Assembly: GCA_037043015.1 (NCBI GenBank)
Contig: CM073326.1
Location: forward strand, 992,001 to 1,056,000
Reading direction: 5' to 3'
Origin: Bryum argenteum
Taxonomy: Eukaryota; Streptophyta; Bryopsida; Bryales; Bryaceae
DNA length: 64,000 nucleotides
Position 1 is the first letter of the stretch, and the number at the start of each line of letters is the position of its first letter. Of this stretch, positions 3,661 through 23,732 are shown in pieces. The position numbers and the translations under genes are program-made. The notes beneath the pieces were generated by a model. That model searched no databases, was not told where the DNA came from, and saw only the letters and a list, made by a program, of their open reading frames with translations.

Positions 3661-4162
3661 GGAAGCTAACGTTGCATGTAGGGATGTGGGCCCAAAAGCA
3701 GCTGTAGTATTATAAGCGAAAGGGTGATCCAGCTGCCATGTAGAAGTTTTCTTTAGTATATGGTGCCACGAAGATGTGTTTGCATTAATCGTGCAAGGTG
3801 GCTCTAATGGCATGCGGCATAGTGGCACCCCACTGCGAGTTGATGTTTAAGGAATTTAAGAGCTTTATATTCACTACACGGATAGATCGCAACACTAACT
3901 AAAGAGCTGCTCTTAGGTTCTCTTTGCCAGCCTACTTAAATTGAGCTCAAGGTGGATATGGGGTATCGCCTCCTCCGGCACTCTGCTCATTGACGTGTAA
4001 CACGGTGCCAATGGACACAGGAGAACCCTTGAGTTGCTTCTTGACGAGGCGGATGTCATAACTAAGTTGGTTGAACAGATGGTGGCGCGATTTGTTGATG
4101 ATGAGGACAAGTCTCTTCTGCCACACGTGTAAGAGCACGTGGAATTGTGAGGGATCAAAGGG
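3661..4162. other. Intergenic, no gene seen
   Basis: Only short open frames on both strands, none recognised. It may include the trailing part of the LINE remnant. Confidence 0.4.
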
Positions 4163-4376
4163 TTAAATATGATATTGTTGCCTTAAATTTTTACTAGGTG
4201 CTCCCTAACTTATAAAGTGTATGTAATAAAATTAGTGAAGTCAAATTCCAAATTTAGAACCTTCATTTTAAAAAGGCATTTTAGATTTAGTAGTTTTTAT
4301 TTTTTTGAATTATATTCATAACCAAATCTGTACTGAAGTGACCCAAGTCAAAAGTTTACGAATTTCACAAGAGCAG
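4163..4376 (+). mobile_element. TTAA F2 element, left half (split by the gypsy element)
   Basis: It contains the F2-family landmarks: a GGTGCTCCCT-type block, AAAGTGTATGTAATAAAATT, CAAATTCCAAATTTAGAACC, and TGACCCAAGTCAAAAG. The same order occurs in the copies at 26118-27041, 30153-31110 and 34188-34769. It stops at the AGCAG target site of the gypsy insertion, and the rest of the family sequence resumes at 23738. The outer left terminus is decayed. Confidence 0.65.
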
Positions 4377-5158
4377 TGTTACCCGCTACAACACCGCGGG
4401 TATCATCACCGAAGACCAAGAGCCACGGAAGACCAAGACTTTACAGCATCCACGGGGCTCGAGGCCGGGGCACAGTGTGCAGAGGACCACGAGGATCGAG
4501 ACCGCGGACACAGGCAGTTAAGGCCGAAGAACAGCGCAGAAGGGTTAGGTTTTATTATAAATAGAGTTAGAGTTATACAATAGGGAGCTCTCTGTAAATG
4601 CACGAATGTAGTGATAGCCGCGAGCACAGTGTTGCGATCTTTGTACTCCTTTTGGCACTCACGATTCAATGCAAGCAGGACTCAGTCCAATTCTACTCTA
4701 ACCCCATTTCTACTTGTACTCTCCCCTCCGCTTCTTGCTATCCTAAAGTCTAAAGTCCTAACCCCTGTGACGTCCGTGGCGCCGTGAGAGTCTGTGTCGA
4801 GGCCGTGGGTCTCAGCGTGTACTACGTGGTCGCGAGGCCACCTCGCGGAGTCACTGCGGACAGCCTTGAAGAGATCCGTGCTCCTGCCGTGGCCGAGGAA
4901 TTGCACAAGGGAAGAACGCCGAACAGCAGGCTAACCCTGGGACTCAGCTTAACGAACACCGTCTCGCCCTCGAGGGATTGGCCTGCCCCGACAGAACTAA
5001 TCACAGGGTGATTACGGCCCCAGTCAACGACTGCCTTGTCATACCTGGACCGTGGTTAAACAAGGTGGAAGCCCACACACCCCGGTTCTTGCCCGTCCAG
5101 CAACCCCAATTGGCACCCCTCGCACCTCGGGCACCTCCATACTGTACCCCGGCTAACA
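4377..5158 (+). repeat. 5' LTR (782 bp)
   Basis: TG...CA-bounded terminal repeat with short inverted ends (TGTTA/TAACA). It matches 22814-23732 except for three visible transitions and the MITE inserted in the 3' copy. It is GC-richer than the surrounding DNA. Confidence 0.93.
4556..4563 (+). promoter_or_regulatory. TATA box of the 5' LTR
   Basis: TATAAATA lies 179 bp into the LTR in a locally AT-rich patch, upstream of the GGGAGCTCTCTGTAAATGC region. It is the best candidate pol II core promoter of the element. The transcription start is not determined. Confidence 0.5.
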
Positions 5159-5161
5159 TTT

Positions 5162-5180
5162 TGGCGACCATGCTGGGGAT
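5162..5180 (+). other. Primer binding site
   Basis: TGGCGACCATGCTGGGGAT begins three bases after the 5' LTR. It has the TGG start expected of a site complementary to a tRNA 3' CCA end. It partly resembles the tRNA-Asp type site used by many plant gypsy elements, but the tRNA is not firmly identified. Confidence 0.6.
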
Positions 5181-5193
5181 GGAGTGCTGAGGT

Positions 5194-5203
5194 AGAAAAA
5201 AAA

Positions 5204-5241
<38 letters not shown>

Positions 5242-5260
5242 AAAAAGAGAGAGAGACAGA
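5194..5260 (+). repeat. A/G-rich leader tract
   Basis: A nearly pure run of A with scattered G lies between the primer site and gag, in the untranslated leader. It is a likely site of slippage and assembly error. Confidence 0.7.
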
Positions 5261-5298
5261 AAGAGAGATTCTTGGCCACGAGCTTACGGGGAGGGAAA

Positions 5299-5757
5299 AT
5301 GCCCCCGAAAAGACACGCCGCGGAAAAAGCCGTGGAGAATATAGTTGCAGATATGGAGGAAATCGTGCAACATGAAGATGAGACCAGAGAACTACTTCTA
5401 TGGATGAAGCAGCAGATGACGGATCTAGCTGCTCAGAACGAGGCAACGAATGCCAAGTTAGAACTACTCAGCCTAAAATATCAAGACATCCAAGGCAATG
5501 TCACACCCGAGGTTATCGCTTCCACACCCAGGAGTGTAGAAGAACCAGCAGACGCAGTGAGATCGGCAACCATACCCAGGGGGAACAATGCCGCGGCCAG
5601 CTCGAGCACCTCGGGAATGCCCTCACCGGCACCTCCAGCGGCACCCACGGGGGTACCCACTATGTCACACAACCCAGGGGGCTCTGACACGTACCATACC
5701 CAGTGTTCGATGAGTCTGGGGATCCAGATTGGCACATCAGGAGATTTAAAGTGGTAG
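5299..5757 (+). CDS. Gag N-terminal ORF of the gypsy element
   Basis: This is the first ATG-initiated frame after the leader (ATG at 5299; the frame is open from further upstream but without ATG). Residues 1-60 are charged and heptad-like, predicting a coiled coil, followed by a Pro/Ser/Ala-rich linker. Such a region precedes the capsid domain in plant gypsy Gag. The frame closes at 5757, whereas the capsid-like sequence continues in another frame open from 5688, so the two frames overlap by about 70 bp and do not join without a -1 shift or an indel. It is either a recently mutated gag or a recoding site; a mutation is simpler. Confidence 0.7.
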
Positions 5758-8700
5758 CACGCACGAACGGCATTTTCCATGCCACGGATCTACAGAACAT
5801 TTTTGGTACCACGCTCCAAGGGAATCATATTAACTGGTACATTGACTTCGAATCCGAACACAGCAATGCCAGTTGGGAGGATATGGAACGGAGTTTTTTG
5901 CACAAGTTTAGAAAACTTAAATCAAGTTCGGAAGTCCTCCGAGCGCTAGGATCGATCACGCAATCCACAAACGAACCGGTGGATAAGTTTTATGACAGAT
6001 TTAAGCAGTTGGCTGATAAACTTAGCCAACGACCCGCGGAAGAATATATGTGCGAATGGTTCAAAAAGGGATTGCTTCCATGGATACAGCAAGGTATCGT
6101 CATCCGTGGGGTAAAGACGCTGCCAGACATTCTCTCCGCCGCCAATGACATTAGTCGGGAACTCCTCGCCCTGAAACAGACACAAACACCCATACTACCA
6201 CTACCCTCGGTGCGACAAGATGCCAGGGGGACACCCCCGTTGTGTGAAACTTGCGGAAAAGCACACCATGGGAAATGTTGGTACTCTAATACCACCCAAT
6301 CCCAGGATCACAGACGATCCAGAAACACCACGGCCGCGGTATACCCCGAGGAGATCAACGTGGACGCTTTTCAGCCAGGTCGTTCGGACGCTTGCTGGGA
6401 GTGCGGGGGTTTGGATCATCGACGGAGCCAATGCCCCGTATTCAAACAAAAGTGGGCACAGGGCCGAAATAATAATACCCCAGGGCCTCCAAACACCGGT
6501 TCCGCGGCTCATAGGAGAGGAGGAGTCACGCTGACTGAAGTCCACGGCCAAGAAACAAACGTATTCACGATCTCGGCCGCCGCGGTGACTACAAGGTCCA
6601 AGGCTATTCCACCAAACCACGTGGTAGAGCACCGGAAACCATTCCCGGAACATCATTGGGAACGACTCCACAACATGAGGACAGATATAAAAAGGGATCT
6701 GGAAGCGGAACACCCCGACATAACACGTACTACGGACCACACCTTGCAACAAGTGCTGGACACCACCAACGTAAGCATCACCCTAACAAAACTATTGCAG
6801 ATTAGCTTCGAGCTACAACAATATCTGCAACGGGCTGTGGTGATCGAAGCAAAACCCGATCCCACGTGTGTAGAGGTTAACGCCACCACGATGGACCCGG
6901 ACGCTGCAGTGATCCACGTGCAATTAGGAGGACAGACGTTAACCAACGTCCTCGTCGATGGGGGGTCTGGCGTGAACGTCATGAGCAACCACGTCCGACA
7001 GGCCCTCGGCTTACCACAACCCCGAAGCGCCCGTTTTATTTTACGCATGGCTAACGACGCCCCCGTTACACCGTTGGGAATCCTCACCATGGTTGGAATT
7101 ACAATACACGGGGTATCCACACCGGCGACATTCGTAGTGATCGAAATGCCACACGACAGCGAATTCCCAGTAATCCTTGGAAGACCTTGGTTGCGAGACA
7201 TGCAGGCCATCCATGACTGGACCAAAAATCAGATCCGCATTCAACGCCACGGAAAGACCGTGATCATACCCGTCGACAGTTGCCTGACTCGCGCCAAGAC
7301 AAACCAGATCAGAACCTCCGCAGGAACCAACTGGCCGGAGGAATTCACAAATGAACAGGAAGCCTTAGTACTCCACGTCCATCCCAGCTTAATATCCGTG
7401 GCCGAGATTCAGTTAGCCGCGGTAGAAGAGAAATTGGATATACCGGAACACTTCACTCGAGAGATAGCCGGGGACGTGGTAGTGAATGCTGTCCCCGCCA
7501 AAAAGGCACTGCATCACGAGACCATCACGGGTTGGACGCACGGGGCCAAGGAGAGAGTACAGCTGGTCAACCTTGGGACAATAGAAGACCCCAAGTACAT
7601 CAAAATCAACACAGATGCACCCCCGGACATCAAGCAGGCTGCCATAGCCCTGTTCCACGAGTACAAAGACATATTTGCGTGGAACCACGAGGACTTAAAG
7701 GGTATCCCCAACGCCCTGGCAGAACACACCATCGACCTCATCCCCGGTGCAACCCCGGTGCAGCAACGACGGTACAGGATGAACCCAAATTATGCCGCTC
7801 GAGTCAAGGCTGAATTGGATAAATTACTCCATGCCAAGTTCATCTCCCCCGTGGATGCAGCGCCGTGGCTATCCCCCATGGTTATCATTCCCAAGAAAAA
7901 TGGTACGTTGCGTATTTGTGTGGATTTCAGAAAACTCAACGCCGCAACAAAAAAGGATCACTACCCGTTACCATATATGGAGGAGATCATCGATGAGGTT
8001 GCCGGACACGAGATGTACTCGTTCCTCGATTGTTTCTCGGGATATTACCAAGTGGCCATGGCCGAACAAGACAAAGGGAAAACAGCTTTCTCCACAGAAT
8101 GGGGACCTTATCAATTCGAGCGTATGCCCTTCGGGGCCAAAAATGCACCTATGACATTCCAACGTGTTATGGAATTGATTTTCAGACCATACCTCAAACA
8201 ATTTTTCCGAATCTACCTGGACGATGGAACCGTTTATGGCAAAATGAAAGACCACATCTCTCACCTCAGGCAAATCTTCCACGCATGTCGGGCCAACGGG
8301 GTAAGCCTCAACGCGGATAAATGCATGTTCCTCTACTTCGCGGGGGTTATCTTGGGGTACATTGTGTGCAAGCACGGCAAGCTCCCCGACCCTGAGAAAA
8401 TAAAGGATATTCTGGGCATGACGTCGCCAACAAACCAAAAGGGCGTACAACGGCTCCTGGGCTTAGCCCAATTCAACCGAATCTACATTGAGAAACTGGC
8501 CCACATCACCGCCCCGATCACTGCGCTGAATCATGCCAAATATACATACCCACGGGACTGGACACCGGAGGCACAAGCAACACTAGAGAAGATAAAACGT
8601 GCTTACTCCAATGCACCAATACTTATTGCCCCGGACTGGTCGAAGCCGTTCCACGTCCACACAGACGCATCCAACATTGCCGTGGGGGTGATGTTAGCCC

Positions 8701-11318
8701 AGAACATAAACGGCAAACACGACCAACCCGTGGCCTACGCTAGTCGCCTTCTCAACCAGGCAGAACGAAATTACTCCACCACGGAACGCGAGGCCCTGGC
8801 AATGATTTACGCTGTCAAAAAGTTCAGACACTACCTCCTCGGGAAGAAATTCCGCTTCATGGTCGACCATCACAGCTTGTCATACCTAGTCAATCAAACC
8901 TTGGTCACAGGGAGGGTGGCTCGGTGGATCATGATACTCCTCGAATACGACTTCGAGGTAGTATACGTTCCAGGGAAGAGACACATTGTGGCAGATTACC
9001 TGTCCAGGGACACTAACACTACCGCGGAAGGAATAGATGATTCCTTCAACGAGGCATATGTACAAGCCACACAAATAGCCACGAACCCCGAGGAAAACAA
9101 GGCAGACTGGAGGGCCGATATCATCCGATACCTCACCACGGGCAACACCCCCGTGGACGCAATTGGAACTCGCAAAATCAGTTTTGTACAAACGACACTG
9201 CCATACACCGTGGTCCAGGGAAAGTTATACAAACGGGGACCAGATCAAGAAATCCGGTTGTGTGTACCAGCTGACCAACAGCAGCAGATCATCACACACC
9301 TTCACGACGGACCCGCGGGAGGACATCAGGGCTCCGATACCACGATCAAAAAGATCCTCTCAGCCAAATATTGGTGGCCAACGCTCCACAAAGATGTAAT
9401 CACATACATCAAGAACTGCCACGCCTGCCAAATATCCACGCCAAATTTTCAGCACCAAGGCAAAGTACCAATGAAGGCAATACCACCCCTGGGACCATTC
9501 CAACGATGGGGGTTAGACTTCGTGGGCCCAATAAAACCAGTTACACGCCAAGGATACAAATATATCCTTGTAGCCACGGATTATACCACAAAGTGGGTGG
9601 AAGCCAAGCCTCTGCGAACTAACACCGCGGTCGTCACGGCCTCGTTCATCTACGAGAACATAATCACGAGGTTTGGATGTCCACTGGAGATCATATCAGA
9701 CCAAGGTACTCACTTCGTGAACACCGTCATACAAGACCTCCTTGACAACCACGTAATCAAGCATCGAACCAGCACTGTGTACTATCCCCAAGGCAATGGA
9801 CAAGCGGAATCGACAAACAAAACATTAATCAACATGCTGAAGAGATTCGTTCACGCTAATCAAGCAGACTGCGATGACTGTTTACCCGCAGCGCTCTGGG
9901 CGTACCGCGTAGTCATCAAAACCGCCACGAAAGCCAATCCATTTGAAATGGTTTACGGCACCCAACCACTACTACCTACAGAATATATTGTGCCGACATT
10001 CCAGACACTACAGCCCAGGGATTATACCCCGCACAGGGTGTTGGCCGCCCGCGTCGGGGATCTACACTACCTCGAGGAAATTCGAGCCCTGGCAACATCA
10101 AATATCGTGCATAAACAAGCCCTGGCCACCAGGCACTTTCAAGGCACACAGCCCCCGCGGGTATTTCAGAGGGGTGACCAGGTACTCTGGTGCCCCCGAG
10201 ATCCGAAACTCAAACGCTCCAAGTTTGAGTCAATCTGGCACGGCCCCTATACGGTGCAATTGTCCCTACCTAACAATACCGTTCTCCTCGTGAACAGTCC
10301 AAACTACGATCCCCACGCCACGATAGTCAACGCTGCAAAGTTGAAACACTATCATACGCAAACGCCACAACTCACGACAGCCCTGATCCTGCAAGATATC
10401 CACACGACGTTAGCAGCCGAGGCACGTAACGAGGAAGAAAACACTGTGGACCCAGCCCCCACAAGAACACAGTCCACGGAAACCGAGGACACGCAACCCG
10501 AGGAAGAAAGTAATGCAGGCAGCAAGGAGCGCGAGGCAGAAATCCGGGGAGACAAGCACGAGCACATCCACACAGAACCCGAGGCACGAAAATCCACACA
10601 GAACACCGGGGAGCAGACACAGCCGCACGGGGGAACCAGGGCAGAAAAATATATGGGCACCCCTTGGGACTTAGCTGCACAGGGAATCTCACCCGTCTCG
10701 GCCATGTCGATGCCCATGCCATACACATACATCAGCCACATACATGTGTACCATGGCCATAACCCGGGGAGTCATAGTCACAACCTTACCCCCGAGGCAT
10801 GGCAGATTGAAGACATAATTACCCCCCTGGGTACTCCCGAGGCATCATCACAACACACTTTAAAAGCGGACACCGCCGCCACAGACAAGACCATAATGAC
10901 CACGCTCGCATCACAGCAGCCAGCAAGAGCATATAGGCCGAGGCAGCCCCCGGTGAGCGCCCTCATTCCTTCGCCATTGCCACACTCACCTCAGCGCAGC
11001 AACCTCTCTCCGCGCAACATCTCTGCCTTTTCGCCCCCGCACACTCCTCTTCCTTGTTTGGACCCCTCGGTGCAGGTTCCAGCGGTCATGGCGCGCGGTG
11101 CTCCCCGGGATCGCAAGCCCCTGTACGTACCCCGGCAGATCGCGGAGTGGAAGAAATACCCCGATGTAGAATGGCTCACGGAGGCAGGATTGTTTCGATA
11201 CGCAAACCACCTCCGTGAGAATATCGATTTAGGTCGCTGCCAAGCGTTCATCACCTCGATGCGGGAGAGGCAGCAGGAGGACCCCAGCAACAGGGACGTG
11301 GCCGGGGTCGTAGAATGA
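5688..11318 (+). CDS. Gag-Pol polyprotein: capsid, zinc knuckles, PR, RT, RNase H, integrase
   Basis: One uninterrupted frame of about 1,870 codons; it has no ATG at its start and must be reached from the upstream gag frame. In order: a retrotransposon Gag region (about 5700-6200); zinc knuckles near 6241 (CETC...HGKC) and 6391 (C-x2-C-x4-H-x4-C); an aspartic protease with the active-site motif DGGSG near 6957; reverse transcriptase with the catalytic YLDD near 8214; RNase H with HTDAS near 8660 and a downstream DHHSL; integrase with HHCC near 9300-9430 and the D, D, E residues near 9580, 9697 and 9805; and a GPY-type module near 10240. After integrase comes a Glu/Thr/Pro-rich linker (about 10400-11080), then in the same frame the start of the extra ORF domain. 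All catalytic motifs look intact. The product would copy and integrate the element. Confidence 0.92.
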
Positions 11319-13253
11319 GTCCTCGTGCGGTACTCCCCGAGGTATTTGTATCAGTTCTTTGGGTGGGATGGCACGGGGGTCACCAGTTGGATACCGCGGA
11401 GTAGCTTTCCACAGCCAGACACCACGGTATACACCCACGGGTATCCAGCACAGGGAGACGGCAAGTTTGACGTCTACGAAATCACACGCAGCAACCCGAA
11501 GATGCCGACCCCTGGTTCGGTAGGATCCGTGGAATACTAAGCCAAGTCTTTTTCCGAAATGACTGTAATGCAGTGCACCCGGATCAACTTGCATTGTGCA
11601 TAATGGCGGGCCGGAGGGAGAAGATTAACTGGGGAAAGCTGGTCGACAGGAACGCGGTGAGCCAAATACAGGGCCACGTTCACAACGATGCGTACGAAAG
11701 TCCCATCGCCCCGTTCTTGACACAATTCATCGGGCATTTTCTGGATTACCACAAGGTAAACCACCACCCATGGTCCATGGGCACATTTTTGGATGTGCAA
11801 CGCGAGCTGGCAGAGTCCGCACACACGAAGGCCACGCCGACACACCGAGGCAAGAGGCCACGCACTGAGGAAGCCGGTGTAGACGAAGGAGGCCACATGG
11901 AGGTGGCCAGTACATCCACCGCCACACAGTTCGGCCCACGCACCACGGAGTTTGAGACAAGGAAACGCACCGTGGAAACATGCATGGAGGAAATGCTCAA
12001 TTTCCTCCACGCCACCGAGCAGCAGCAACAGGCAGCCACGGCCAAGCAGAAAGAATGGGAGATTCGGCACAAGCGCCACACTGCTCAGCTCGTACAGACC
12101 ACCCAGGCCGCGGCTCACAAAGCCATGGAGGATTATAAGCTGGAGGTTCAGCGTCAGAATGACCAACTCCAAGGGCAGCTGACTTCCCTGCAAAATCAGC
12201 TCAATACGAGGGATTTGGAGTTACAGGCTGCCACGGAGAAATCCCGGTCCTTTGAAGATCAGAGCACCAGGGATCGTGAGAGGATCGAGAGATTGGACCG
12301 CCAAACAGCCGAGCTCGTAGCTCAATGCAAGGCTCTAACCGAGGAGTTGGCTCTCAAACCCACGACCCCGTCCTCAAACACCGTGGCCATGGACTCGATA
12401 CATCAGCAGCGTCAGGAGATCGACAATGCCCGTGAGAATTTCGAGACCAACAAGGTGGCATGGACGAACCACGCAGCCCGAGTAATTGCCACCACGGCAT
12501 ATCAGATGCTACGATCCACGTCCGAGGACCCCCCCGCATCATTTCTCGATCAGTGCATTGGTGACGCACTGATAACCCTGGAACTGGAGAACTCGGAAAA
12601 TACATGGGGCAGCCAGGGGGACCCCTTTCTTGGCGAAGACGAGGAGGAGACACAGCCCCAGCCCATGGAAGAACCGAAGCTGACACAACCCCGGTCACAG
12701 GCCCACGAGGAGGATTACGACAACGTACAGGAGGAGGACATCCGCGTAACACAGGGCCAAACCGAGGACAGGGGCATGGATAGCAACCCCGGGGAAGAGA
12801 TGTATCGATATTCGACACAGATAGAAGAGGAGAGAGTAGACATACCCGAAGGTTTTACGGATCAAGAGCAGACTCCTCACCAGTCTCCCCGGCATCATAC
12901 CTCGGTGAATTCGCCACAATATCACCTCCCGGTCCTGTCACCACCAACACAATATGAGTCTCCAGTAAGGCAGAACCCCGATGGCACATACCCATGGCCG
13001 ACGCGAGCGGAGTCCCCACTATCCCCCTCAAATCCCTTGCCCACGTTTTCACCATTGCGAGTAATACCATCACCGATATCCCTCGCAAGGCACAGGCAAA
13101 TTATCCTCCAAAAGGAGGAACAGGAAGGCTGGAACGTGGAAGACGGGGAGGAGGCCGGGGACGAGTCCACAGAATCCATGCTATTCGTGCTGCGATACTT
13201 CCACGAACACCCCGATCTTGCTGCTCACTATACCAATTCCGAGGCAACTGGAC
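11088..13253 (+). pseudogene. Extra ORF (aORF) after integrase, broken, with coiled coil
   Basis: From an in-frame ATG at 11088 the polyprotein frame enters a new domain (a [10 protein letters not shown] stretch, then RYANHL). It is interrupted by a TGA at 11316, resumes in the same frame to 11540, and then continues in a different frame from about 11498. The content (RYLYQFFG, then DPWFGRI, then DQLALCIM...KINWGKL) resembles the 'putative plant transposon protein' domain common in plant gypsy elements; that resemblance is from memory. From about 11950 to 12480 the protein is a long Gln/Glu-rich coiled coil, then Pro-rich. At 13253 it is cut by the hAT-like insertion; the frame resumes at 22554. 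Function unknown. Defects seen: one stop, one frameshift, one 9.3-kb insertion. Confidence 0.6.
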
Positions 13254-13465
13254 CAGGGTTGTCTTATTAGACACAATTTTGGGAATGTCTGTCTGATTTG
13301 TCGTATTGGACATGTCTGTTAGACGTCGAGTCGACGAAAATGTCGACCGTACCAAAAATTACATAGTAAAAAACTTGCTGAGATTTACCTTGAGGTAAAA
13401 AGCTATTTTCCTACGTGGCGTAGGGTTGATAATGACGTGAAAAATCAAAATACACGTCACAGTGG

Positions 13466-13724
13466 GCGACCGCCGGTTCGCGACCGCGCCACGTAGGACT
13501 GGACCGGCGGTCGCGTCATCTAGACCGGCGGTCGCCTTCTCTGGACCGGCGGTCGCCTTAGCGACCGACGATCACCCAGGTCGACCGACGATCGCCCATA
13601 AGCGACCGACGTTCGCCCCTAGGCGACCGCCGATACAGCCGATGGGCGATCGTCGGTCGCTAGGGCGACCGCCGATCCAGGTGATGGGCGAATGTAGCTC
13701 ATAGGGCGACCGGCGGTCTACCTT
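13466..13724. repeat. GC-rich GCGACCG motif cluster 1
   Basis: About a dozen tandem-like variants of GCGACCGCCGGTC and GCGACCGACGATCGCC in both orientations. Many are self-complementary around GATCG or CCGG. These GC-rich islands contrast sharply with the AT-rich bodies beside them. Confidence 0.8.
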
Positions 13725-14180
13725 CTTCGAACGAAGGACATGAACTTTGAAGAGCCATAACTTTTTCATTCGGACTCCGTTTTTGACGAAATCACTTGGG
13801 TTGGGTCCCAAATTAAGTCTAGTTTATGTCGTAAAAATTTCAGACCCATACAATTAAGTATGAAAAAATGGCATGCATTTTAGTGAAGGGAGTACTTGTT
13901 TCTTGGGTTTTTAAACATTAGGCATGTTTTACCATTGTTAGCCTATTATGTGACATCAAAAAGGTTTTTGCATGATGTGTTTTAGACAAGTGTGATCTTT
14001 AGATGCATCCCACAATCTTTGTAGTTGGAAGTATTTTGATCCAGATAATTTTAGTATTGGCTTTGCAATGATATTTCTAGGATGAAAAAAGTGAAAAAGT
14101 GGATGATTTTTGAAGAGATAGATCTCCTTCAACCATCGTTAGATTTTGAATTTTTATTTTAAAATGGATTCCAATTACAG
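13725..14180 (+). repeat. F1 repeat body, copy 1 in the hAT-like element
   Basis: It runs from TTCGAACGAAGGACATGAAC to GGATTCCAATTACAG. It contains the landmarks AGCCATAACTTTTTCATTCG, GGGTTGGGTCCCAAATTAAG and GGCATGCATTTTAGTGAAGG. The same landmarks, more diverged, appear in the TTAA-flanked F1 elements at 32623, 35189 and 43458. Confidence 0.85.
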
Positions 14181-14187
14181 AACGTTC

Positions 14188-14295
14188 ATGGGCGATCGCG
14201 GGTTCCGCATGCGCGACCGCGGGTCCTGCATGGGCGACCGCGGGTCCCGCATGGGCGACCGCGGGTCCCGCATGGGCGACCGCCCGGTCCGCTGC
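14188..14295 (+). repeat. 21-bp tandem array
   Basis: About five units of ATGGGCGACCGCGGGTCCCGC, the first diverged, follow F1 copy 1. The mirror copy at about 20720-20815 has fewer or altered units, so copy number differs between the inverted arms. Confidence 0.8.
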
Positions 14296-14339
14296 AACTG
14301 CAGTTTGGGGCGACCGGCAGTCTGGAGGGGCGAGTGCAA

Positions 14340-15345
14340 AAGAGCTCCCGCTCTTGCTCTTGGATCCTCTTTTACGCAATCCCTCAATCTCTCATATTCA
14401 AATTTCAAATTCATCGCTTCAAGCATCTTCTCCGTTCCCCCTCATTTCCCTTAAATCTCCCTTCATTTTTCATTCTCCATCTTCTTCAAATTTCATATTC
14501 TCCGCTTCTTCACATTTTCCATAATGAAATGAAAATGATTGTCATGGTCATGGCTTTTGGCCAAGACTTGGGAGCATGATAAATGAAAAATGAATTTTTG
14601 AGTGCCTTGGACACTCTTCTGGTGCAAGATGGATTTAGACATGTACAAGTTTAATCTCAATTTTAAAATAAAATTCTCATCATTCTCTCTTTTACCCTCC
14701 CCTTTTTCTTCATTTTCTTTTTAAATAATTGTACTCTAGCCAATCAATGATTTTTTTGAGCCTCATGGTCTCCTTGATAGTAGTTGAGTTGAGGCATTTA
14801 CCTCCACTCAACTACAATCAAGGAGACCATAAAAACATTATCCATTATGGATAAATTAGCATACTTTGGGGACTTTGAAGTTAGTGATCATTCTCCTTTC
14901 ATCAAGGGTATTGTAAAGCCAAATGGTCAATCTTGAGGGTCCACAATGTAAAGTGAGCCTAAGACAAGTAGAGTAAAGGTACGCTTATTTCAAGTTCCTA
15001 TAATGTCTTGGTAGTAAATACAAGTGTTGAAAACATCTTGGTTGTCATGATATTTAAGTTTGATTTATTCATCATAATATGGGCAAGTGATATCAAATAC
15101 TTGCACGTCATTCACAAATAATGGGTTAAATATTACTATGAGTAATTGGTTCATTAGAATGTTTGTAAATGGTTATTGTTGTCGACTTATAATATTTACC
15201 TTCATATGGTGGTCACTCAATTTTTGCCAAATCTATAATATGTTATATATCACCCTTTAATTTGACAAGCAACTTTTTCCCTCACTTGTTACTAGGATAT
15301 ATGCACGAACCTCTTTCTCTTAATTGTATTAGAAGGCGTTAATAC
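14340..15345 (+). other. Unique AT-rich block of the inverted arm, no gene
   Basis: Contains pyrimidine-rich sequence and a perfect-looking short inverted repeat around 14765-14830 (CAAGGAGACCAT and ATGGTCTCCTTG). There is no convincing ORF. The mirror image lies at about 19640-20680. Confidence 0.6.
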
Positions 15346-15384
15346 TTAACCCGCCAAAATTTTCAAATGCCTCCCGCCAATGCC

Positions 15385-15529
15385 TCCCCCGACGATCGCC
15401 CATGAGCGACCGACGTTCGCCCCTAGGCGACCGCCGATACAGCCGATGGGCGATCGTCGGTCGCTAGGGCGACCGCCGATCCAGGTGATGGGCGAATGTG
15501 GCTCATAGGGCGACCGGCGGTCTACCCTC
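15385..15529. repeat. GC-rich motif cluster 2
   Basis: Same GCGACCG/CGATCG motif family as cluster 1, immediately before F1 copy 2. Confidence 0.75.
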
Positions 15530-15980
15530 TTCGAACGAAGGACATGAACTTTGAAGAGCCATAACTTTTTCATTCGGACTCCGTTTTTGACGAAATCACT
15601 TGGGTTGGGTCCCAAATTAAGTCTAGTTTATGTCGTAAAAATTGCAGACCCATACAATTAAGTATGAAAAAATGGCATGCATTTTAGTGAAGGGAGTATT
15701 TGTTATTTGGGTTTTTAAACATTAGGCATGTTTTACCATTGTTAGCCTATTATGTGACATAAAAAAGGTTTTTGCATGATGTGTTTTAGACAAGTGTGAT
15801 CTTTAGATGCATCCCACAATCTTTGTAGTTGGAAGTATTTTGATCCAGATAATTTTAGTATTGGCTTTGCAATGATATTTCTAAGATGAAAAAAGTGAAA
15901 AAGTGGATGATTTTTGAAGAGATAGATCTCCTTCAACCATCGTTAGATTTTGAATTTTCATTTTAGAATGGATTCCAATT
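15530..15980 (+). repeat. F1 repeat body, copy 2
   Basis: Same landmarks and orientation as copy 1. It is followed by the F1 tail (15981-16118) with GAAGATATATTGAAGATAAG and a GCAGTTCTTATCATTGCAAG block. Confidence 0.85.
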
Positions 15981-16118
15981 AGAGTGTTGTATTGGTGATA
16001 GAAACCTCGATTCATTCGAAGATATATTGAAGATAAGGTATAATTTGAGTGCTAGGGATCTAGGTTTGGACTATATTAATTACTTTATAGAATATTTGGC
16101 AGTTCTTATCATTGCAAG

Positions 16119-17514
16119 GTTACTATTTGAGCCATAGGGAAGTCCAAGATGTATAGGGAAATAGAGAGGAAGAGTAGTATTTATACTTTGCCTGGACCGG
16201 CGGTGGCCTGAGCAACCGACGATGGCCTATGTGGTTGAATTTATATGGGGATATTTGAATTGCGGGGTTTGAAGCACGGGGGGCATATGTAAATATATAA
16301 GCAAAAAGGGAGTGGAAGGGGTGTTGATAACTTTCCTAGGTGATTCGTATTGTGTAAAAAATATGGTATAAATCTTAGGGGCATAGGACGAACAAAAGTA
16401 TTTTTCCCGAATTTCTAAAAATTAAATAGTCATGTGAAAGTAGGCGGTGTGCGCACATGCATACGAAAACAAAGTGGGGAATGTAATTTGAACATTTGGA
16501 CTACACTAAATAGGTACATTAGTGTTAGATTTTTATAAGATTTGAAAATGCTACAAGTTTTTACTTTTGGGATAAAAATTTAACCAAGAGTATCGATTCC
16601 AATACTATGTAAGGATCCCCATCTTCACCATTGTAGAGGGTACAAATATTGACTAATAGTAAAAACTTATAGCCTATTTATGTAAATTAGTGTATCTAAC
16701 ACTAATCTACCTATTTAGTGTAGGTAATATGGATCATATAAAAATGATGGAACCATCAAAAATATTATAGGACAACATGTACTATTTTTCCCAAATTAAT
16801 ATAGAATTTTTGAAGTAGAGCTTTAAATAATAGATAAAAAATAGTTAAATGGAGAGAAAAAATATTTTAAAAAGAATTGGACTATGTAATAACTACCTTA
16901 TGAACATGATGGAGCTATGAAAAAGAATCGTTGGAGTAAAGGATCTATAGGTTGGATTTTGGTTGGAAGCACTTAGAAACACCAAAACTTCAAAAAATAA
17001 GAAAAATTAGATAAAGGGGGTAAGAGGATAATTTAAACCCTTACACTACCTAATGATGACCCTATGGAAATGATGGTGTTATTTAGAAAATCGTGGGGAT
17101 ATGTCACCTATAGGTCATCATTTGCTTGTAAGTCATTTGAATGAGTAGAATATTGAATGATATACGGAAAATAGATTTGTGGAAAGAGATAACGATTTTA
17201 AAACTTGTGTTGACTAAAAAAGACCTTATAAAAATTATGGAAGAACAAAATTTCCCGTAAAAGAAACGTATCTACATGTTATGATTTACTTTGACTTTGT
17301 AGGATGCTAAGTAATAGAGGAAGTTATACTAAAGGGGGGAGGAGGTGGTTTTATTATTTTCTCTAACCGTATTAAATATATTAAATCATGAAAGAAGCCA
17401 CATGGAACTTGGATTTACATGGAAGGAAATACTTGGTGTTAATTTGATTCAACCTTGGCATGGTGTAGGTCTATAGGATACTTGGTGTTAACTTCATTCA
17501 AAACCTCCAAATCC
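16119..17514. other. Central unique spacer of the hAT-like element
   Basis: About 1.4 kb of AT-rich sequence not mirrored elsewhere in the element. It holds one inverted pair (ACACTAAATAGGTACATTAG near 16503, with its reverse complement near 16690). No coding region is seen. Confidence 0.55.
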
Positions 17515-18095
17515 CGCGCCCGCCAATACAGCGGATGGGCGATCGTCGGTCGCTAGGGCGACCGCCGATCAATGAACGATCTTGTGGATGAGGGCGACCG
17601 GCGGGTCACGTGATGGGGTGCACCAAGGAGATTAGTGTCCGCGAGCCTCCTCGCACCCTCCTTTGGGGCGACCGCCGGTCAGCGGCGATGGGCGATCGTC
17701 GGTCGCTAGGGCGACCGCCCGATCGGCGAACGATCGCGATGGCGAGGCGACCGGCGGTCTACGTGATGGGGTGCACCAAGGAGAATAGTGTCCGCGAGCC
17801 TCCGCGCACCCTCCTGCTGGGGCGACCGCCGGTCCAGGCGATGGGCGATCGTCGGTCGCTAGGGCGATCGTCGGTCGCTAGGGCGACCGCCGATCCAGCG
17901 AACGACGGTAACAGGGCGACCGGCGGTCTACGCGATGGGCAAGCACCCAAGGAGAAAGTGTCCGCGAGCCTCCGCGCACCCCTCCTGATGGGGCGACCGC
18001 CGATCCACCCGATGGGCGATCGTCGGTCGCTAGGGCGACCGCCGATCCAGGTGATGGGCGAATGTAGCTCATAGGGCGACCGGCGGTCTACCCTC
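17515..18095. repeat. GC-rich motif cluster 3 with about 150-190-bp direct repeats
   Basis: The largest motif cluster. A block reading GATGGGGTGCACCAAGGAGA followed by a GTCCGCGAGCCTCC stretch occurs near 17618 and 17763, with a variant near 17935. Each is embedded in GCGACCG motifs, so this is a short higher-order tandem array. Confidence 0.75.
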
Positions 18096-18550
18096 TTCGA
18101 ACGAAGGACATGAACTTTGAAGAGCCATAACTTTTTCATTCGGACTCCGTTTTTGACGAAATCACTTGGGTTGGGTCCCAAATTAAGTCTAGTTTATGTC
18201 GTAAAAACTGCAGACTCATACGATTAAGTATGAAAAAATGGCATGCATTTTAGTGAAGGGAGTATTTGTTATTTGGGTTTTTAAACATTTGGCATGTTTT
18301 ACCATTGCAAGCCTATTATGTGATATCAAAAAGGTTTTTGCATGATGTGTTTTAGACAAGTGTGATCTTTAAATGCATCCCACAATCTTTGTAGTTGGAA
18401 GTATTTTGATCCAAATAGTTTTAGTATTGGCTTTGCAATGATATTTCTAGGATGAAAAAAGTGAAAAAGTGGATGATTTTTGAAGAGATAGATCTCCTTC
18501 AACCATTGTTAGATTTTGAATTTATTTTTTAGAATGGGTTCCAATTACAG
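18096..18550 (+). repeat. F1 repeat body, copy 3
   Basis: Same landmarks as copies 1 and 2, with slightly more differences. With its tail it faces the inverted copy 4 across a short spacer (about 18700-18890), making an inner hairpin. Confidence 0.85.
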
Positions 18551-19027
18551 TGTTGTAATGGTGATAGGAACCTCAATCCATTCGAAGATATATTGAAGAT
18601 AAGGTATAATTTGAGTGTAAGGGGTCTATTACTGGACTATATTAATTGTTTTGTAAACTAATTGGCAGTTTTTATCATTGCAAGAGTTCTATTCGAGCCA
18701 TAGGGAAGTGTAAGGTGTATAGGGAAATAGAGAGGGAGAGTAGTATTTATACTTTTCCTATGTATTTTATATGAAACATGATTAAAAGTTTTGGCCTATA
18801 AGATGAAGGTAAGTAGTTTCTATTAAATACCTAGAATTAATTAAATTTGTTGAAATGGGGTGTGTGTATAAAAGGAGGGAAGAGATGATTCAATAATGAT
18901 AAAAACCGCCAAATATAATACAAAGTAATTAATATAGTCCAAGCCTAGATCCCTAGCACTCAAATTATACGTTATCTTCAATATACCTTCGAATGAATCG
19001 AGGTTTCTATCACCAATACAACACTCT

Positions 19028-19475
19028 AATTGGAATCCATTCTAAAATGAAAATTCAAAATCTAACGATGGTTGAAGGAGATCTATCTCTTCAAAAATCA
19101 TCCACTTTTTCACTTTTTTCATCTTAGAAATATCATTGCAAAGCCAATACTAAAATTATCTGGATCAAAATACTTCCAACTACAAAGATTGTGGGATGCA
19201 TCTAAAGATCACACTTGTCTAAAACACATCATGCAAAAACCTTTTTTATGTCACATAATAGGCTAACAATGGTAAAACATGCCTAATGTTAAAAACCCAA
19301 ATAACAAATACTCCCTTCACTAAAATGCATGCCATTTTTTCATACTTAATTGTATGGGTCTGCAATTTTTACGACATAAACTAGACTTAATTTGGGACCC
19401 AACCCAAGTGATTTCGTCAAAAACGGAGTCCGAATGAAAAAGTTATGGCTCTTCAAAGTTCATGTCCTTCGCTCA
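19028..19475 (-). repeat. F1 repeat body, copy 4 (inverted)
   Basis: Mirror of copy 2. It lies next to GC motif cluster 4 (about 19482-19625). Confidence 0.85.
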
Positions 19476-20823
19476 AGAGGGTAGACCGCCGGTCGCCCTA
19501 TGAGCCACATTCGCCCATCACTGGATCGGCGGTCGCCCTAGCGACCGACGATCGCCCATCGGCTGTATCGGCGGTCGCCTAGGGGCGAACGTCGGTCGCT
19601 CATGGGCGATCGTCGGGGGAGGCATTGGCGGGAGGCATTTGAAAATTTTGGCGGGTTAAGTATTAACGCCTTCTAATACAATTAAGAGAAAGAGGTTCGT
19701 GCATATATCCTAGTAACAAGTGAGGGAAAAAGTTGCTTGTCAAATTAAAGGGTGATATATAACATATTATAGATTTGGCAAAAAATTGAGTGACCACCAT
19801 ATGAAGGTAAATATTATAAGTCGACAACAATAACCATTTACAAACATTCTAATGAACCAATTACTCATAGTAATATTTAACCCATTATTTGTGAATGACG
19901 TGCAAGTATTTGATATCACTTGCCCATATTATGATGAATAAATCAAACTTAAATATCATGACAGTCAAGATGTTTTCAACACTTGTATTTACTACCAAGA
20001 CATTATAGGAACTTGAAATAAGCGTACCTTTACTCTACTTGTCTTAGGCTCACTTTACATTGTGGACCCTCAAGATTGACCATTTGGCTTTACAATACCT
20101 TGATGAAAGGAGAATGATCACTAACTTCAAAGTCCCCAAAGTATGCTAATTTATCCATAATGGATAATGTTTTTATGGTCTCCTTGATTGTAGTTGAGTG
20201 GAGGTAAATGCCTCAACTCAACTACTATCAAGGAGACCATGAGGCTCAAAAATCATTGATTGGCTAGAGTACAATTATTTAAAAAGAAAATGAAGAAAAA
20301 GGGGAGGGTAAAAGAGAGAATGATGAGAATTTTATTTTAAAATTGAGATTAAACTTGTACATGTCTAAATCCATCTTGCACCAGAAGAGTGTCCAAGGCA
20401 CTCAAAAATTCATTTTTCATTTATCATGCTCCCAAGTCTTGGCCAAAAGCCATGACCATGACAATCATTTTCATTTCATTATGGAAAATGTGAAGAAGCG
20501 GAGAATATGAAATTTGAAGAAGATGGAGAATGAAAAATGAAGGGAGATTTAAGGGAAATGAGGGGGAACGGAGAAGATGCTTGAAGCGATGAATTTGAAA
20601 TTTGAATATGAGAGATTGAGGGATTGCGTAAAAGAGGATCCAAGAGCAAGAGCGGGAGCTCTTTTGCACTCGCCCCTCCAGACTGCCGGTCGCCCCAAAC
20701 TGCAGTTGCAGCGGACCGGCGGTCGCCCATGCGGGACCCGCGGTCGCCCATGCAGGACCCGCGGTCGCCCATGCAGGACCCGCGGTCGCGCATGCGGAAC
20801 CCGCGATCGCCCATGAACGTTCT

Positions 20824-21276
20824 GTAATTGGAATCCATTTTAAAATAAAAATTCAAAATCTAACGATGGTTGAAGGAGATCTATCTCTTCAAAAATCATC
20901 CACTTTTTCACTTTTTTCATCCTAGAAATATCATTGCAAAGCCAATACTAAAATTATCTGGATCAAAATACTTCCAACTACAAAGATTGTGGGATGCATC
21001 TAAAGATCACACTTGTCTAAAACACATCATGCAAAAACCTTTTTGATGTCACATAATAGGCTAACAATGGTAAAACATGCCTAATGTTTAAAAACCCAAG
21101 AAATAAGTACTCCCTTCACTAAAATGCATGCCATTTTTTCATACTTAATTGTATGGGTCTGCAATTTTTACGACATAAACTAGACTTAATTTGGGACCCA
21201 ACCCAAGTGATTTCGTCAAAAACGGAGTCCGAATGAAAAAGTTATGGCTCTTCAAAGTTCATGTCCTTCGTTCGAA
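20824..21276 (-). repeat. F1 repeat body, copy 5 (inverted)
   Basis: Mirror of copy 1. It lies between the shortened 21-bp array (about 20690-20822) and a GC motif cluster (about 21285-21465). Confidence 0.85.
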
Positions 21277-21670
21277 GAAGGTAGACCGCCGGTCGCCCTA
21301 TGAGCTACATTCGCCCATCACCTGGATCGGCGGTCGCCCTAGCGACCGACGATCGCCCATCGGCCAGATCGGTCGTCGCTGGGGCTTAACGTCGGTCGCT
21401 CATGGGCGATCGTCGGTCGCTCATGGGCGATCGTCGGTCGCTCAGGCGACCGCCGGTCTAGGCAAAGTATAAATACTACTCTCCCTCTCTATTTCCCTAT
21501 ACATCTTGGACTCCCCTATGGCTCAAATAGTAGCCTTGCAATGATAAGAACTGCCAAATATTCTATAAAGTAATTAATATAGTCCAAACCTAGATCCCTA
21601 GCACTCAAATTATACGTTATCTTCAATATATCTTCGAATGAATCGAGGTTTCTATCACCAATACAACACT

Positions 21671-22124
21671 CTAATTGGAATCCATTCTAAAATAAAAATT
21701 CAAAATCTAACGATGGTTGAAGGAGATCTATCTCTTCAAAAATCATCCACTTTTTCACTTTTTTCATCGTAGAAATATCATTGCAAAGCCAATACTAAAA
21801 TTATCTGGATCAAAATACTTCCAACTACAAAGATTGTGGGATGCATCTAAAGATCACACTTGTCTAAAACACATCATGCAAAAACCTTTTTGATGTCACA
21901 TAATTGGCTAACAATGGTAAAACATGCCTAATGTTTAAAAACCCAAGAAACAAGTACTCCCTTCACTAAAATGCATGCCATTTTTTCATACTTAATTGTA
22001 TGGGTCTGCAATTTTTACGACATAAACTAGACTTAATTTGGGACCCAACCCAAGTGATTTCGTCAAAAACGGAGTCCGAATGAAAAAGTTATGGCTCTTC
22101 AAAGTTCATGTCCTTCGTTCGAAG
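21671..22124 (-). repeat. F1 repeat body, copy 6 (inverted)
   Basis: A third inverted body with its tail (21470-21670) outside the main inverted arm. It is followed by the last GC motif cluster (about 22130-22400) near the right terminus. Confidence 0.85.
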
Positions 22125-22553
22125 AGGGTAGACCGCCGGTCGCCCTATGAGCCACATTCGCCCATCACCTGGATCGGCGGTCGCCCTAGCGACCGACGAT
22201 CGCCCATCGGCCAGATCGGCGGTCGCCTAGGGGCGAACGTCGGTCGCTTATGGGCGATCGTCGGTCGACTGAAGCGATCGTCGGTCGCTAAGGCGACCTT
22301 GATCCAAGAAAGCGCATCACGGTCTAGATGACACGACGCCGCCGGTCGATCCCCTACGGCGCTGATCGCGAACCGTATTGCTTGGTGTACATGCCGCGTG
22401 GCGCACCCACGTAGGATGCAACGTGGGCGGGTAAATCCAGGGTAAAAAAAGATTCTGTAGATTCTATTAGACATTCTGAGGCTCAATGTCTGTCTGACAT
22501 GTCGTGTCTGTCTGACGTCCGTCAGTGTCTAGCAAGACAACCCTGAACTGGAC

Positions 22554-22768
22554 GACAATGCCCGGCATGCAATCGAACCCTGGGAGGCACGGTGTTTGAT
22601 GTGTATACCCACGCACTTAATTTCCGTGGCAACCACATCCTGATGCATCGCGCCGTGGCCGAAGCACTTCGGCGATTGTACAACGGTGAGGAGCCCCCTC
22701 GCAGCGGCCACCAATTTCCTCGCGAACAAGCCCGACCGAACAGGAGGCCCGCCCCCACGCGTCGCTAA
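22554..22768 (+). pseudogene. C-terminal part of the interrupted extra ORF
   Basis: Directly after the right target duplication an open frame continues the ORF cut at 13253, ending at TAA 22766. It starts with a CPAC (C-x2-C) motif and ends in a basic, Pro/Arg-rich tail. A following His/Cys pair is not obvious, so a zinc site is only possible. It shows that the hAT-like element landed inside coding sequence. Confidence 0.65.
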
Positions 22769-22799
22769 CCCAGCAATTCGCGGACGAATTGCACTCTGC

Positions 22800-22813
22800 G
22801 AAGGAGGGCAAAA
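22800..22813 (+). other. Polypurine tract
   Basis: GAAGGAGGGCAAAA abuts the 3' LTR. It is purine-rich with one C, as expected for plus-strand priming. Confidence 0.7.
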
Positions 22814-23732
22814 TGTTACCCGCCACAACACCGCGGGTATCATCACCGAAGACCAAGAGCCACGGAAGACCAAGACTTTACAGCATCCACGGGGCTCGAG
22901 GCCGGGGCACAGTGTGCAGAGGACCACGAGGATCGAGACCGCGGACACAGGCAGTTAAGGCCGAAGAACAGCGCAGAAGGGTTAGGTTTTATTATAAATA
23001 GAGTTAGAGTTATACAATAGGGAGCTCTCTGTAAATGCACGAATGTAGTGATAGCCGCGAGCACAGTGTTGCGATCTTTGTACTCCTTTTGGCACTCACG
23101 ATTCAATGCAAGCAGGACTCAGTCCAATTCTACTCTAACCCCATTTCTACTTGTACTCTCCCCTCCGCTTCTTGCTATCCTAAAGTCTAAAGTCCTAACC
23201 CCTGTGACGTCCGTGGCGCCGTGAGAGTCTGTGTCGAGGCCGTGGGTCCAGTGTTTTTTTTTTGGACGAGTGTCACCCTTGTTGGCTTAAAGGCAGTAGC
23301 CAGTTTTTGGAGGGAGGAAGTCAGATAGGTCAGATTTCTGACAATCTGGCGAAATTTCGCCAGAAAAAAAACCACTGCGTGGGTCTCAGCGTGTACTACG
23401 TGGTCGCGAGGCCACCTCGCGGAGTCACTGCGGACAGCCTTGAAGAGATCCGTGCTCCTGCCGTGGCCGAGGAATTGCACAAGGGAAGAACGCCGAACAG
23501 CAGGCTAACCCTGGGACTCAGCTTAACGAACACCGTCTCGCCCTCGAGGGATTGGCCTGCCCCGACAGAACTAATCACAGGGTGATTACGGCCCCAGTCA
23601 ACGGCTGCCTTGTCATACCCGGACCGTGGTTAAACAAGGTGGAAGCCCACACACCCCGGTTCTTGCCCGTCCAGCAACCCCAATTGGCACCCCTCGCACC
23701 TCGGGCACCTCCATACTGTACCCCGGCTAACA
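22814..23732 (+). repeat. 3' LTR (919 bp, 782 bp plus a MITE)
   Basis: Same ends and sequence as the 5' LTR. It carries the 129-bp hAT MITE and its 8-bp duplication. A matching TATA box lies at 22993-23000. Confidence 0.93.
23249..23377. mobile_element. hAT-type MITE inside the 3' LTR (129 bp)
   Basis: It begins CAGTGTTTTTTTTTTGG and ends CCAGAAAAAAAACCACTG, forming inverted termini. The 8-bp duplication CGTGGGTC flanks it (23241-23248 and 23378-23385). The 5' LTR has a single CGTGGGTC here, i.e. the empty site. A perfect 18-bp palindrome CTGGCGAAATTTCGCCAG lies at 23346-23363. No coding capacity. Confidence 0.9.

Follow-up and report, generated by a model that had tools for sequence, protein, structure and literature searches.

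A transposase-less foldback element belonging to a giant, high-copy hAT family in Bryum argenteum

In this study we demonstrate that a 9,292-bp element, located in a stretch of 64,000 nucleotides of Bryum argenteum DNA (the window), lacks a transposase and belongs to a young, high-copy hAT family whose members share their ends and 8-bp duplications. The structure of the element, of its full-length relatives and of their motif arrays suggests that it is probably a non-autonomous foldback offshoot of a giant hAT, with a palindrome that arose by inverted duplication and with arrays that are bound by an element-encoded protein.

Results

Limits and ends of the window element

The features that delimit the element are as follows.

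13254..22545, no strand: whole non-autonomous element, 9,292 bp, from its exact ends and duplication
13246..13253, + strand: left 8-bp target site duplication, AACTGGAC (exact sequence match)
22546..22553, + strand: right 8-bp target site duplication, AACTGGAC (exact sequence match)
13254..13489, + strand: left end module E5, with a 10-bp terminal repeat at its start (module comparison)
22299..22545, + strand: right end module E3, with a 10-bp terminal repeat at its end (module comparison)

The left end, CAGGGTTGTC, starts at 13254 and the right end, GACAACCCTG, stops at 22545, each occurring once in the window, and AACTGGAC is found in the window only at the two flanking positions. The E5 module shows 93-99% identity in 20 fetched copies and in the full-length copy at L039, although some of these matches end at position 218. 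Overall GC content is nearly equal inside the element (0.409) and in the rest of the window (0.401). The longest stop-to-stop frame of the element has 160 codons, and a tblastn search of the window with 11 transposase and cargo frames of a full-length copy gave no match at 1e-8; the window copy thus yielded no transposase. These results bear out the inverted ends, the exact 8-bp duplication and the lack of a transposase that the first-pass annotation had described.

A giant hAT family

By searching the assembly with these ends, we identified 161 left ends, allowing up to 3 mismatches, and at least 40 right ends, 11 of the 40 right ends having no listed left end among the matches listed. As had been anticipated for a genuine family, the search yielded numerous copies whose 8-bp duplications differ and, inside same-ended copies, an interrupted transposase with DUF659 and hAT-dimerisation domains. 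Perfect 8-bp duplications flank 25 of the 29 elements checked, namely the window copy, all seven copies with an exact right end, the full-length copy at L039-L041 and 16 of 20 large end pairs; among these 20 pairs, two match at 7 of 8 positions and two have no duplication. The sizes of the 29 end pairs among the matches listed range from 3.8 to 48.9 kb with a peak at 19.5-20.0 kb (7/29); in elements larger than about 24 kb, other insertions may have become nested at a later time. Transposase remains are present in 8 of the 20 fetched copies and F1, the repeat body described below, in 11, while neither was seen in L013; L039 adds a further transposase. Elements of the hAT superfamily are typically a few kb long and have one gene. 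The large size pointed out earlier is no peculiarity of the window copy, which belongs to a giant hAT family with a size peak near 20 kb. This parent family had been overlooked in the first reading from the sequence alone.

The full-length copy read across L039-L041 is about 20 kb long and has a transposase and about five further genes. Its transposase carries the Pfam domains DUF659 (2e-40) and Dimer_Tnp_hAT (1e-5) and is split into three frames, and stops also interrupt several transposase frames of other copies. A public relative of 1,060 aa shows 93% identity to the first frame and contains both domains; relatives of the transposase are found in plants. Comparison of transposase frames between copies gives dN/dS values of 0.37-0.62, matches below 75% identity and pairs below 60 codons having been dropped from the dN/dS sets.

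Several features place the family in the hAT superfamily. Besides the 8-bp duplications, the elements have short CAGGG-type ends (CAGGGTTGTC / GACAACCCTG), a consensus that characterizes the short terminal inverted repeats of hATs, and a transposase with the dimerisation domain occurs in same-ended elements such as L039. The window element has the make-up of a Ds-like derivative, with ends common to the transposase-bearing form, no transposase and filler inside. An N-terminal BED-type zinc finger is frequent in hATs but does not define them; with the limits applied, neither L039 nor P0001 gave a PF02892 match. By eye, Cys and His residues are seen near the N-terminus of the transposase. KDZ (Zisupton-like) elements also make 8-bp duplications; this assignment was rejected, as only DUF659 and Dimer_Tnp_hAT pass the cut-offs in the transposase frames when all Pfam models are used. 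A Polinton identity of the giant form was ruled out by its hAT transposase. When viral contigs were scanned with P0001, none of 19 pattern matches was confirmed as a relative. Among the matches listed from open-access papers, we found no hAT family with this make-up, and the whole word 'hAT' is absent from the texts of a giant-transposon review (PMC6431247) and of the review PMC13317346.

CG-rich motif arrays

The hexamers CGACCG/CGGTCG occur 65 times in the element (7.0 per kb) versus 4 times in the rest of the window (0.07 per kb). Arrays of at least three motifs number eight inside the element and none elsewhere in the window, which substantiates the GC-rich clusters previously noticed between the F1 bodies. 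All eight were located by motif scan and have no strand.

13467..13712: CG-rich motif array, left subterminal
14193..14316: CG-rich motif array
15393..15516: CG-rich motif array
17540..18082: CG-rich motif array, 23 motifs
19490..19612: CG-rich motif array
20687..20809: CG-rich motif array
21290..21452: CG-rich motif array
22137..22348: CG-rich motif array, right subterminal

Arrays are found close to each end of the full-length form and upstream of every one of its six genes. Counted by gene, an array is found 147-376 bp upstream of 6/6 starts, the gene starts being estimated, and the nearest array downstream is at least 381 bp away in all 30 gene-end rows (6/6 versus 0/6, Fisher p = 0.002). 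Because copies inherit their array positions, only six independent genes enter this comparison. The longest distance upstream (376 bp) almost reaches the shortest one downstream (381 bp). It is a serious possibility, if not a probable one, that the arrays are transposase-binding or structural subterminal repeats that were spread by rearrangement and have no regulatory meaning upstream of genes. Other hATs also have repeated subterminal motifs, for example Ac (excerpt of PMC3260210); arrays also lie between the modules of the gene-less window element, and the internal array L039:7954-8396 has no gene directly downstream of it. What argues against such an explanation is the presence of arrays upstream of all six full-length genes at distances that are retained in other copies.

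Accessory genes

The further genes of the full-length copy are C1, C2, C3 and C4, which are paralogues of one another and all contain an unrecognised domain, and a kinase-like gene, K. A RING-like frame, whose score falls below the Pfam cut-off, adjoins C4, with a stop between the two in both copies read. In a second copy, L083, C4 consists of several frames and K is a single frame of 530 codons, which one stop splits in L040; in its right half, L083 runs colinear to L040 with 92-93% identity. C1 and CC are present in 8 of the 9 transposase-bearing copies (8 fetched plus L039), and the gene order is kept in those parts of other copies that were read. The public relatives P0070 and P0073 retain many conserved positions of the accessory domain, which P0073 unites with a RING in one protein. 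AlphaFold models of the domain are poor (mean pLDDT 41.3 and 44.8), and its profile gave 0 matches among solved structures at E values up to 1.

We consider it unlikely that these genes are passively captured host genes, a Pack-TYPE cargo outside the biology of the element. Kinase and RING domains are indeed common in hosts, several frames are broken, and selection between copies is weak, with pooled cargo dN/dS of 0.39-0.86 and values weakly below 1 for C1, C3 and CC. Passive capture, however, fits poorly with a gene set and gene order common to most transposase-bearing copies over the stretches read, with the mutual paralogy of C1-C4, with the conserved positions in both public relatives and with the domain fusion in P0073.

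The foldback and its F1 bodies

The interior of the window element consists of the following parts.

13541..16113, + strand: left inverted arm (element 288-2860), 98.5% to 18895-21461
18895..21461, - strand: right inverted arm (element 5642-8208), 98.5% to the left arm
13664..14180, + strand: F1 body 1 (module comparison)
14184..15383, + strand: module T, left, with 72-78% identity to parts of L040:1063-1717 in the full-length element
15468..16183, + strand: F1 body 2 (module comparison)
16228..17933, + strand: module C, about 90% to L039:6672-8411 of the full-length element
18034..18749, + strand: F1 body 3, left side of the core palindrome (module comparison)
18754..18898, + strand: module M, spacer of the core palindrome, with the U-turn junction, common to 12/12 F1-type copies, at its right edge
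18895..19537, - strand: F1 body 4, right side of the core palindrome (module comparison)
19622..20818, - strand: module T, right (module comparison)
20822..21338, - strand: F1 body 5 (module comparison)
21470..22185, - strand: F1 body 6 (module comparison)

The longest inverted arms of the window element are 98.5% identical over 2,575 aligned positions. Their measured length of 2.57 kb agrees with the earlier estimate of about 2.55 kb, and all six proposed F1 bodies, three forward and three inverted, were located. L026, the fullest F1-type copy read (12,080 bp), forms a palindrome over almost its whole length, with arms of 5.5 kb (421-5949 and 6165-11699) at 97.9% identity over 5,558 bp, so that arms make up most of both elements. 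In L026 the palindrome extends beyond F1 itself into the flanks, and the window element seems to have arisen from such a palindrome by deletion. The U-turn junction, with an asymmetric spacer of 215 nt, is present in 12/12 F1-type copies examined, letter-identical in 9 and with a point difference in 3; in 3 of the 12, its orientation with respect to the ends is reversed. Since the junction is the same in all of them, the foldback predates the window copy. In L012, no second arm beyond M was seen in the stretch read. Judged by sequence, modules C and T match the giant element and not the host.

F1 relatives elsewhere in the window show 69-77% identity in long matches. Among four that were aligned, one at 35.2 kb has the inverted ends TTAACCTCTAAAC / GTTTAGGGGTTAA, and the other three have one such end each, or degenerate versions; neither end is present in the F1 copy of the window element used in the alignment. 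The ends of these relatives support the view that F1 belongs to the body of a TTAA-ended repeat. Across elements, 46 F1 copies differ by 2.6% within and 3.7% between elements. The nearest F1 neighbour lies in the same element for 25.1 of the 46 copies, compared with 3.4 after shuffling (at most 10.75 over 2,000 shuffles), and F1 copies inside one element thus resemble each other beyond chance. The first-pass proposal of a non-autonomous hAT-type element with a host-repeat body amplified by inversion is therefore supported, but its 'mosaic of two transposition systems' goes too far: the aligned F1 has neither of the TTAA-type ends, so that nothing points to a second system of mobility.

Repeated transposition of the TTAA-ended repeat into the element in both orientations, in place of capture and inverted duplication, would agree with the many F1 relatives in the window, one of them with both TTAA-type ends. 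This origin is nevertheless very improbable, given an aligned F1 copy without either end, the closeness of the 46 copies compared with a distance of 22-24% to two window relatives, and flanks in L026 that, like F1, are palindromic. Long palindromes are difficult to assemble, yet a local assembly artefact or a chance heap of host repeats is hardly credible in view of 161 left ends, 25/29 perfect duplications that differ among the F1-type copies checked, and one junction shared by 12/12 copies at different places.

Discussion

The non-autonomous offshoot of the giant hAT proposed here may have originated when a deletion derivative of the giant form took up the body of a TTAA-ended host repeat (F1 plus M). 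A single inverted duplication, possibly through strand switching in the repair of an excision gap, would then have produced the palindrome, and the copies of 2.3 to 9.3 kb, including the window copy, would be shortened palindromes. The transposase of the giant hAT would mobilise the offshoot in trans through the shared ends. An element-encoded protein, either the transposase or a member of the paralogous C1-C4 group, would bind the CG-rich arrays, and the bound protein might turn on or de-silence the whole element in concert with transposition.

The VANDAL elements of Arabidopsis, members of the Mutator superfamily, offer a comparison for such a role. In the excerpt of PMC5735166, VANDAL motif arrays are described in terminal and intergenic non-coding regions and in introns, including upstream of one gene, and their binding by an element-encoded protein, VANC, leads to loss of DNA methylation. 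VANDALs differ from the giant hAT in superfamily and in motif, and binding in the giant hAT is what we infer. We speculate, with considerable reserve, that the giant hAT lineage independently evolved a VANC-like system, in which C1-C4 would recognise the arrays, lift silencing and coordinate the expression of six genes; the gene-less palindromes would retain and multiply the arrays so as to draw these proteins to themselves, as parasites of their parent. Young members of about 20 kb with some five accessory genes and an array ahead of each gene, an arrangement unusual for hATs, would suggest that cut-and-paste hATs can become multi-gene regulons, and the family may provide a second, independent case for the escape of transposons from silencing. 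The graded foldback series from 2.3 to 12 kb, with one junction, could also make the birth and decay of a foldback readable step by step.

The ends of Ac are short and of the CAGGG type, as in the window family. Maize Ac/Ds, especially Ds2 with its filler, likewise shows 8-bp duplications, full-length and end-keeping non-autonomous forms and subterminal motifs, and in the portion of PMC3260210 on Ac, the Ac transposase binds hexamer repeats that lie in the outermost 200 bp at either end. Ac itself, as that portion describes it, is 4.6 kb long with one transcript and has its motifs in the terminal 200 bp (PMC3260210). Unlike Ac, the full-length form of the present family measures about 20 kb with about six genes, carries internal arrays and has a giant palindromic derivative.

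Foldback elements such as FB and Galileo of Drosophila have very long, repeat-built inverted arms and are linked to other superfamilies; the window foldback differs from them in belonging to a hAT family with 8-bp duplications. Another large hAT-named transposon carrying a further gene is the 14-kb ToxhAT of wheat-pathogenic fungi (excerpt of PMC12506042). Compared by description, ToxhAT is fungal, whereas the giant hAT is high-copy and has an accessory gene set. According to the part of PMC12730594 concerned with it, hAT7 of rust fungi is a hAT with a TET/JBP dioxygenase, an accessory gene linked to DNA methylation, and differs from the present family in its 7-bp duplications and its other accessory gene; the dioxygenase can be read as having a counter-silencing role. 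Pack-TYPE elements, including those of rice and maize hATs, are also non-autonomous with foreign inner sequence and contain pieces of coding genes (excerpt of PMC8903248), whereas the window element contains a repeat body without a long frame, 160 codons being the maximum. Unlike Pack-TYPE elements, moreover, it has a full-length relative with a gene set of its own.

A hAT family with palindromic copies

The window element belongs to a hAT family whose copies have their ends in common; its F1-type copies share one U-turn junction, include shorter forms of a single palindromic plan and carry copies of the host-repeat body F1 that are alike within an element. The first-pass annotation had described it as hAT-like, and this description stood, with 10-bp inverted ends that are each single-copy in the window, an exact flanking 8-bp duplication AACTGGAC and three forward plus three inverted F1 bodies, while its interpretation proved incomplete. 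The element is real and unlikely to be an assembly artefact. Its longest arms span 2,575 bp at 98.5% identity, and its density of CG-rich hexamers is 100 times that of the rest of the window. It is enclosed by a retrotransposon flanked by a 5-bp duplication, AGCAG.

Window features
13254-22545: hAT element
4377-23732: Ty3/gypsy-type retrotransposon; frame 5688-11318 encodes RT, RNase H and integrase domains
4377-5158 and 22814-23732: its LTRs, matching in two pieces (99.4 and 99.8% identical), the right one with ~130 bp more than the left
32619-33702, 35185-36180, 42181-44465, 63184-63997: repeats of up to ~1 kb, 67-76% identity
27771-28850, outside the element: open frame; thiamine pyrophosphate enzyme domain (5e-27) at its N-terminus

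Because the hAT element sits inside a retrotransposon that is itself recent, as its LTR identity of 99.4-99.8% indicates, the hAT insertion should be the younger of the two.

When the fetched copies were searched for modules defined on the window element, the core palindrome, F1-M-F1' (M is the spacer, F1' the inverted F1), was found in the window and in 10 of 11 fetched F1-type copies; in the remaining one, L012, F1 and M are present and the second arm was not seen in the stretch read. All 12 have the same U-turn junction, letter-identical in nine and with a point difference in three; relative to the ends, L012, L020 and L026 carry the core in inverted orientation. Positions 421-11699 of L026 form a near-perfect palindrome whose arms are 97.9% identical and separated by a spacer of 215 nt. 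We infer that L026 is the copy closest to the ancestor, and the others can be read as shortened forms of this palindrome.

Sizes of F1-type copies (all but L026 read as shortened forms)
L026: 12,080 bp
Window element: 9,292 bp
L027: 7,554 bp
L015: 7,308 bp
L024: 6,966 bp
L018: 4,653 bp
L019: 4,528 bp
L011: 3,085 bp
L020: 2,255 bp

F1 is similar to the body of a repeat, one window copy of which (at 35.2 kb) has inverted ends, TTAACCTCTAAAC...GTTTAGGGGTTAA, that we take to resemble plant telomere repeat units. Across 46 F1 copies from 12 elements (at least 490 aligned positions, without the last two of L026), divergence is 2.6% within and 3.7% between elements, and the two window relatives compared differ from element F1 copies by 22-24%. 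The nearest neighbour lies in the same element for 25.1 of 46 copies where 3.4 would be expected (at most 10.75 in 2,000 shuffles), and this excess points to exchange between F1 copies within one element.

Copies in the genome

Allowing up to 3 mismatches, the genome contains 161 matches to the left 50 bases, against none for a reversed-pattern control. We fetched the 20 copies with the best-scoring left ends after the window (20 of 40 among the matches listed) and read one further copy, L039-L041, in full. Perfect, mutually different 8-bp duplications flank all seven fetched copies whose exact right end lay in the piece; L039-L041 has CTAGAAAG. Among 20 larger pairs of listed ends, 16 have perfect duplications, two match at 7/8 and two have no match, so that perfect duplications number 25 of 29 overall, window included. 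Pairing 40 right ends with 100 left ends among the matches listed, at most 60 kb apart, gave 29 pairs, 3.8 to 48.9 kb long, and left 11 right ends partnerless. Seven of these 29 measure 19.5-20.0 kb, one of them without a matching duplication and one at 7/8. A perfect duplication, GTATGCCA, flanks the 48,935-bp copy, whose middle may contain nested insertions.

Of 99 left ends that match with one mismatch or none, 39 lie on contig C1 (17% of the genome; binomial p about 1e-7), as do many of the hAT-dimerisation matches listed; our guess is that this contig is rich in repeats or a sex chromosome. Five other hAT transposases of the genome (L032, L034-L037), 37-45% identical to that of the giant element over the matched parts, represent related families.

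The giant form and its genes

The full-length copy L039-L041 occupies 19,905 bp (contig C1:8237005-8256909). Its transposase, on the minus strand, is split into three frames, with DUF659 (2e-40) and hAT dimerisation (1e-5) domains. The public protein P0001 (1,060 aa) has both domains, is 93% identical to the first frame and, judged by eye, continues through the second and third. Further genes were counted by grouping adjacent frames.

Genes of the full-length copy and distances to CG-rich arrays
Transposase: array 187-220 bp upstream, 381-404 bp downstream
C1: 244-319 bp upstream
C2, with a coiled part, CC: 374-376 bp upstream, measured from a truncated frame
C3: about 147-149 bp upstream
C4, adjoined by a RING-like frame (zf-RING_2 at 5.8e-5, below its cut-off): 160 bp upstream
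K, protein kinase domain (1e-9): 235-245 bp upstream, 446-447 bp downstream
Other genes: 554 bp and more downstream

C1-C4 share a domain with 29 invariant positions in five aligned sequences, for which we found no Pfam match above cut-off and no solved relative. Public relatives are few among the at most 8,000 candidates scored per search, one for C3 alone and four for the domain profile, including P0073 (816 aa), which combines domain and RING in one protein. In L083, another family copy, the right half is colinear with L040 at 92-93%, in the order C2, C3, C4, RING-like frame, K; K is a single 530-codon frame there and is broken by one stop in L040, C4 is broken in L083, and both copies have a stop between C4 and the RING-like frame.

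The 20 fetched copies comprise eight with transposase remains, 11 with F1 and one, L013, with neither in the stretch read. Including L039, gene C1 and CC keep their order in eight of nine transposase-bearing copies. The transposase of L025 is interrupted, with the remainder displaced beyond the fetched piece, and L016 is without the first transposase frame. Relative to L039/L040, the three transposase frames give a pooled dN/dS of 0.37-0.62 and the cargo frames 0.39-0.86, values that make purifying selection plausible for the transposase and do not prove it for the cargo.

The inner modules C and T of the foldback copies match the giant form, C at ~90% identity to L039:6672-8411 and T at 72-78% to parts of L040:1063-1717, which suggests that the foldback copies descend from the giant element by rearrangement. 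Module mapping did not find F1 or M in L039 or L040. The F1-type copy L022 (C5:14000614-14010580) has a piece of K on its left and C3 and T pieces after it; it is an insertion into, or a rearrangement with, another giant copy.

CG-rich arrays and comparison with known systems

Arrays of CGACCG/CGGTCG/CGATCG lie near both ends of the full-length form and upstream of its genes. With gene start points estimated, an array lies within 350 bp of 22 of 28 start rows versus none of 30 end rows; the six start rows beyond that distance are three C2 cross-hits on gene C1 and three C2 rows. Since the copies share ancestry, we used an independent comparison by gene, which gives 6/6 versus 0/6 (p = 0.002, with the cut-off set after the data were seen). 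An internal array, at L039:7954-8396, has no gene directly downstream. The arrays are candidate targets of an element-encoded protein, the transposase would act in trans, and the U-turn may arise by strand switching in gap repair.

The family is of hAT type, and its accessory gene set and array layout were not found in any hAT family among the open-access literature matches listed. For the element, the nearest described analogue that we found is Ac/Ds, with motifs in the terminal 200 bp (PMC3260210), whereas the giant hAT form also has arrays upstream of its genes. For the arrays, it is VANDAL/VANC, in which a protein of the element binds arrays of motifs in non-coding DNA that is terminal, intergenic or upstream (PMC5735166); those of the giant hAT form lie near the ends and upstream of genes, and their binding is putative.
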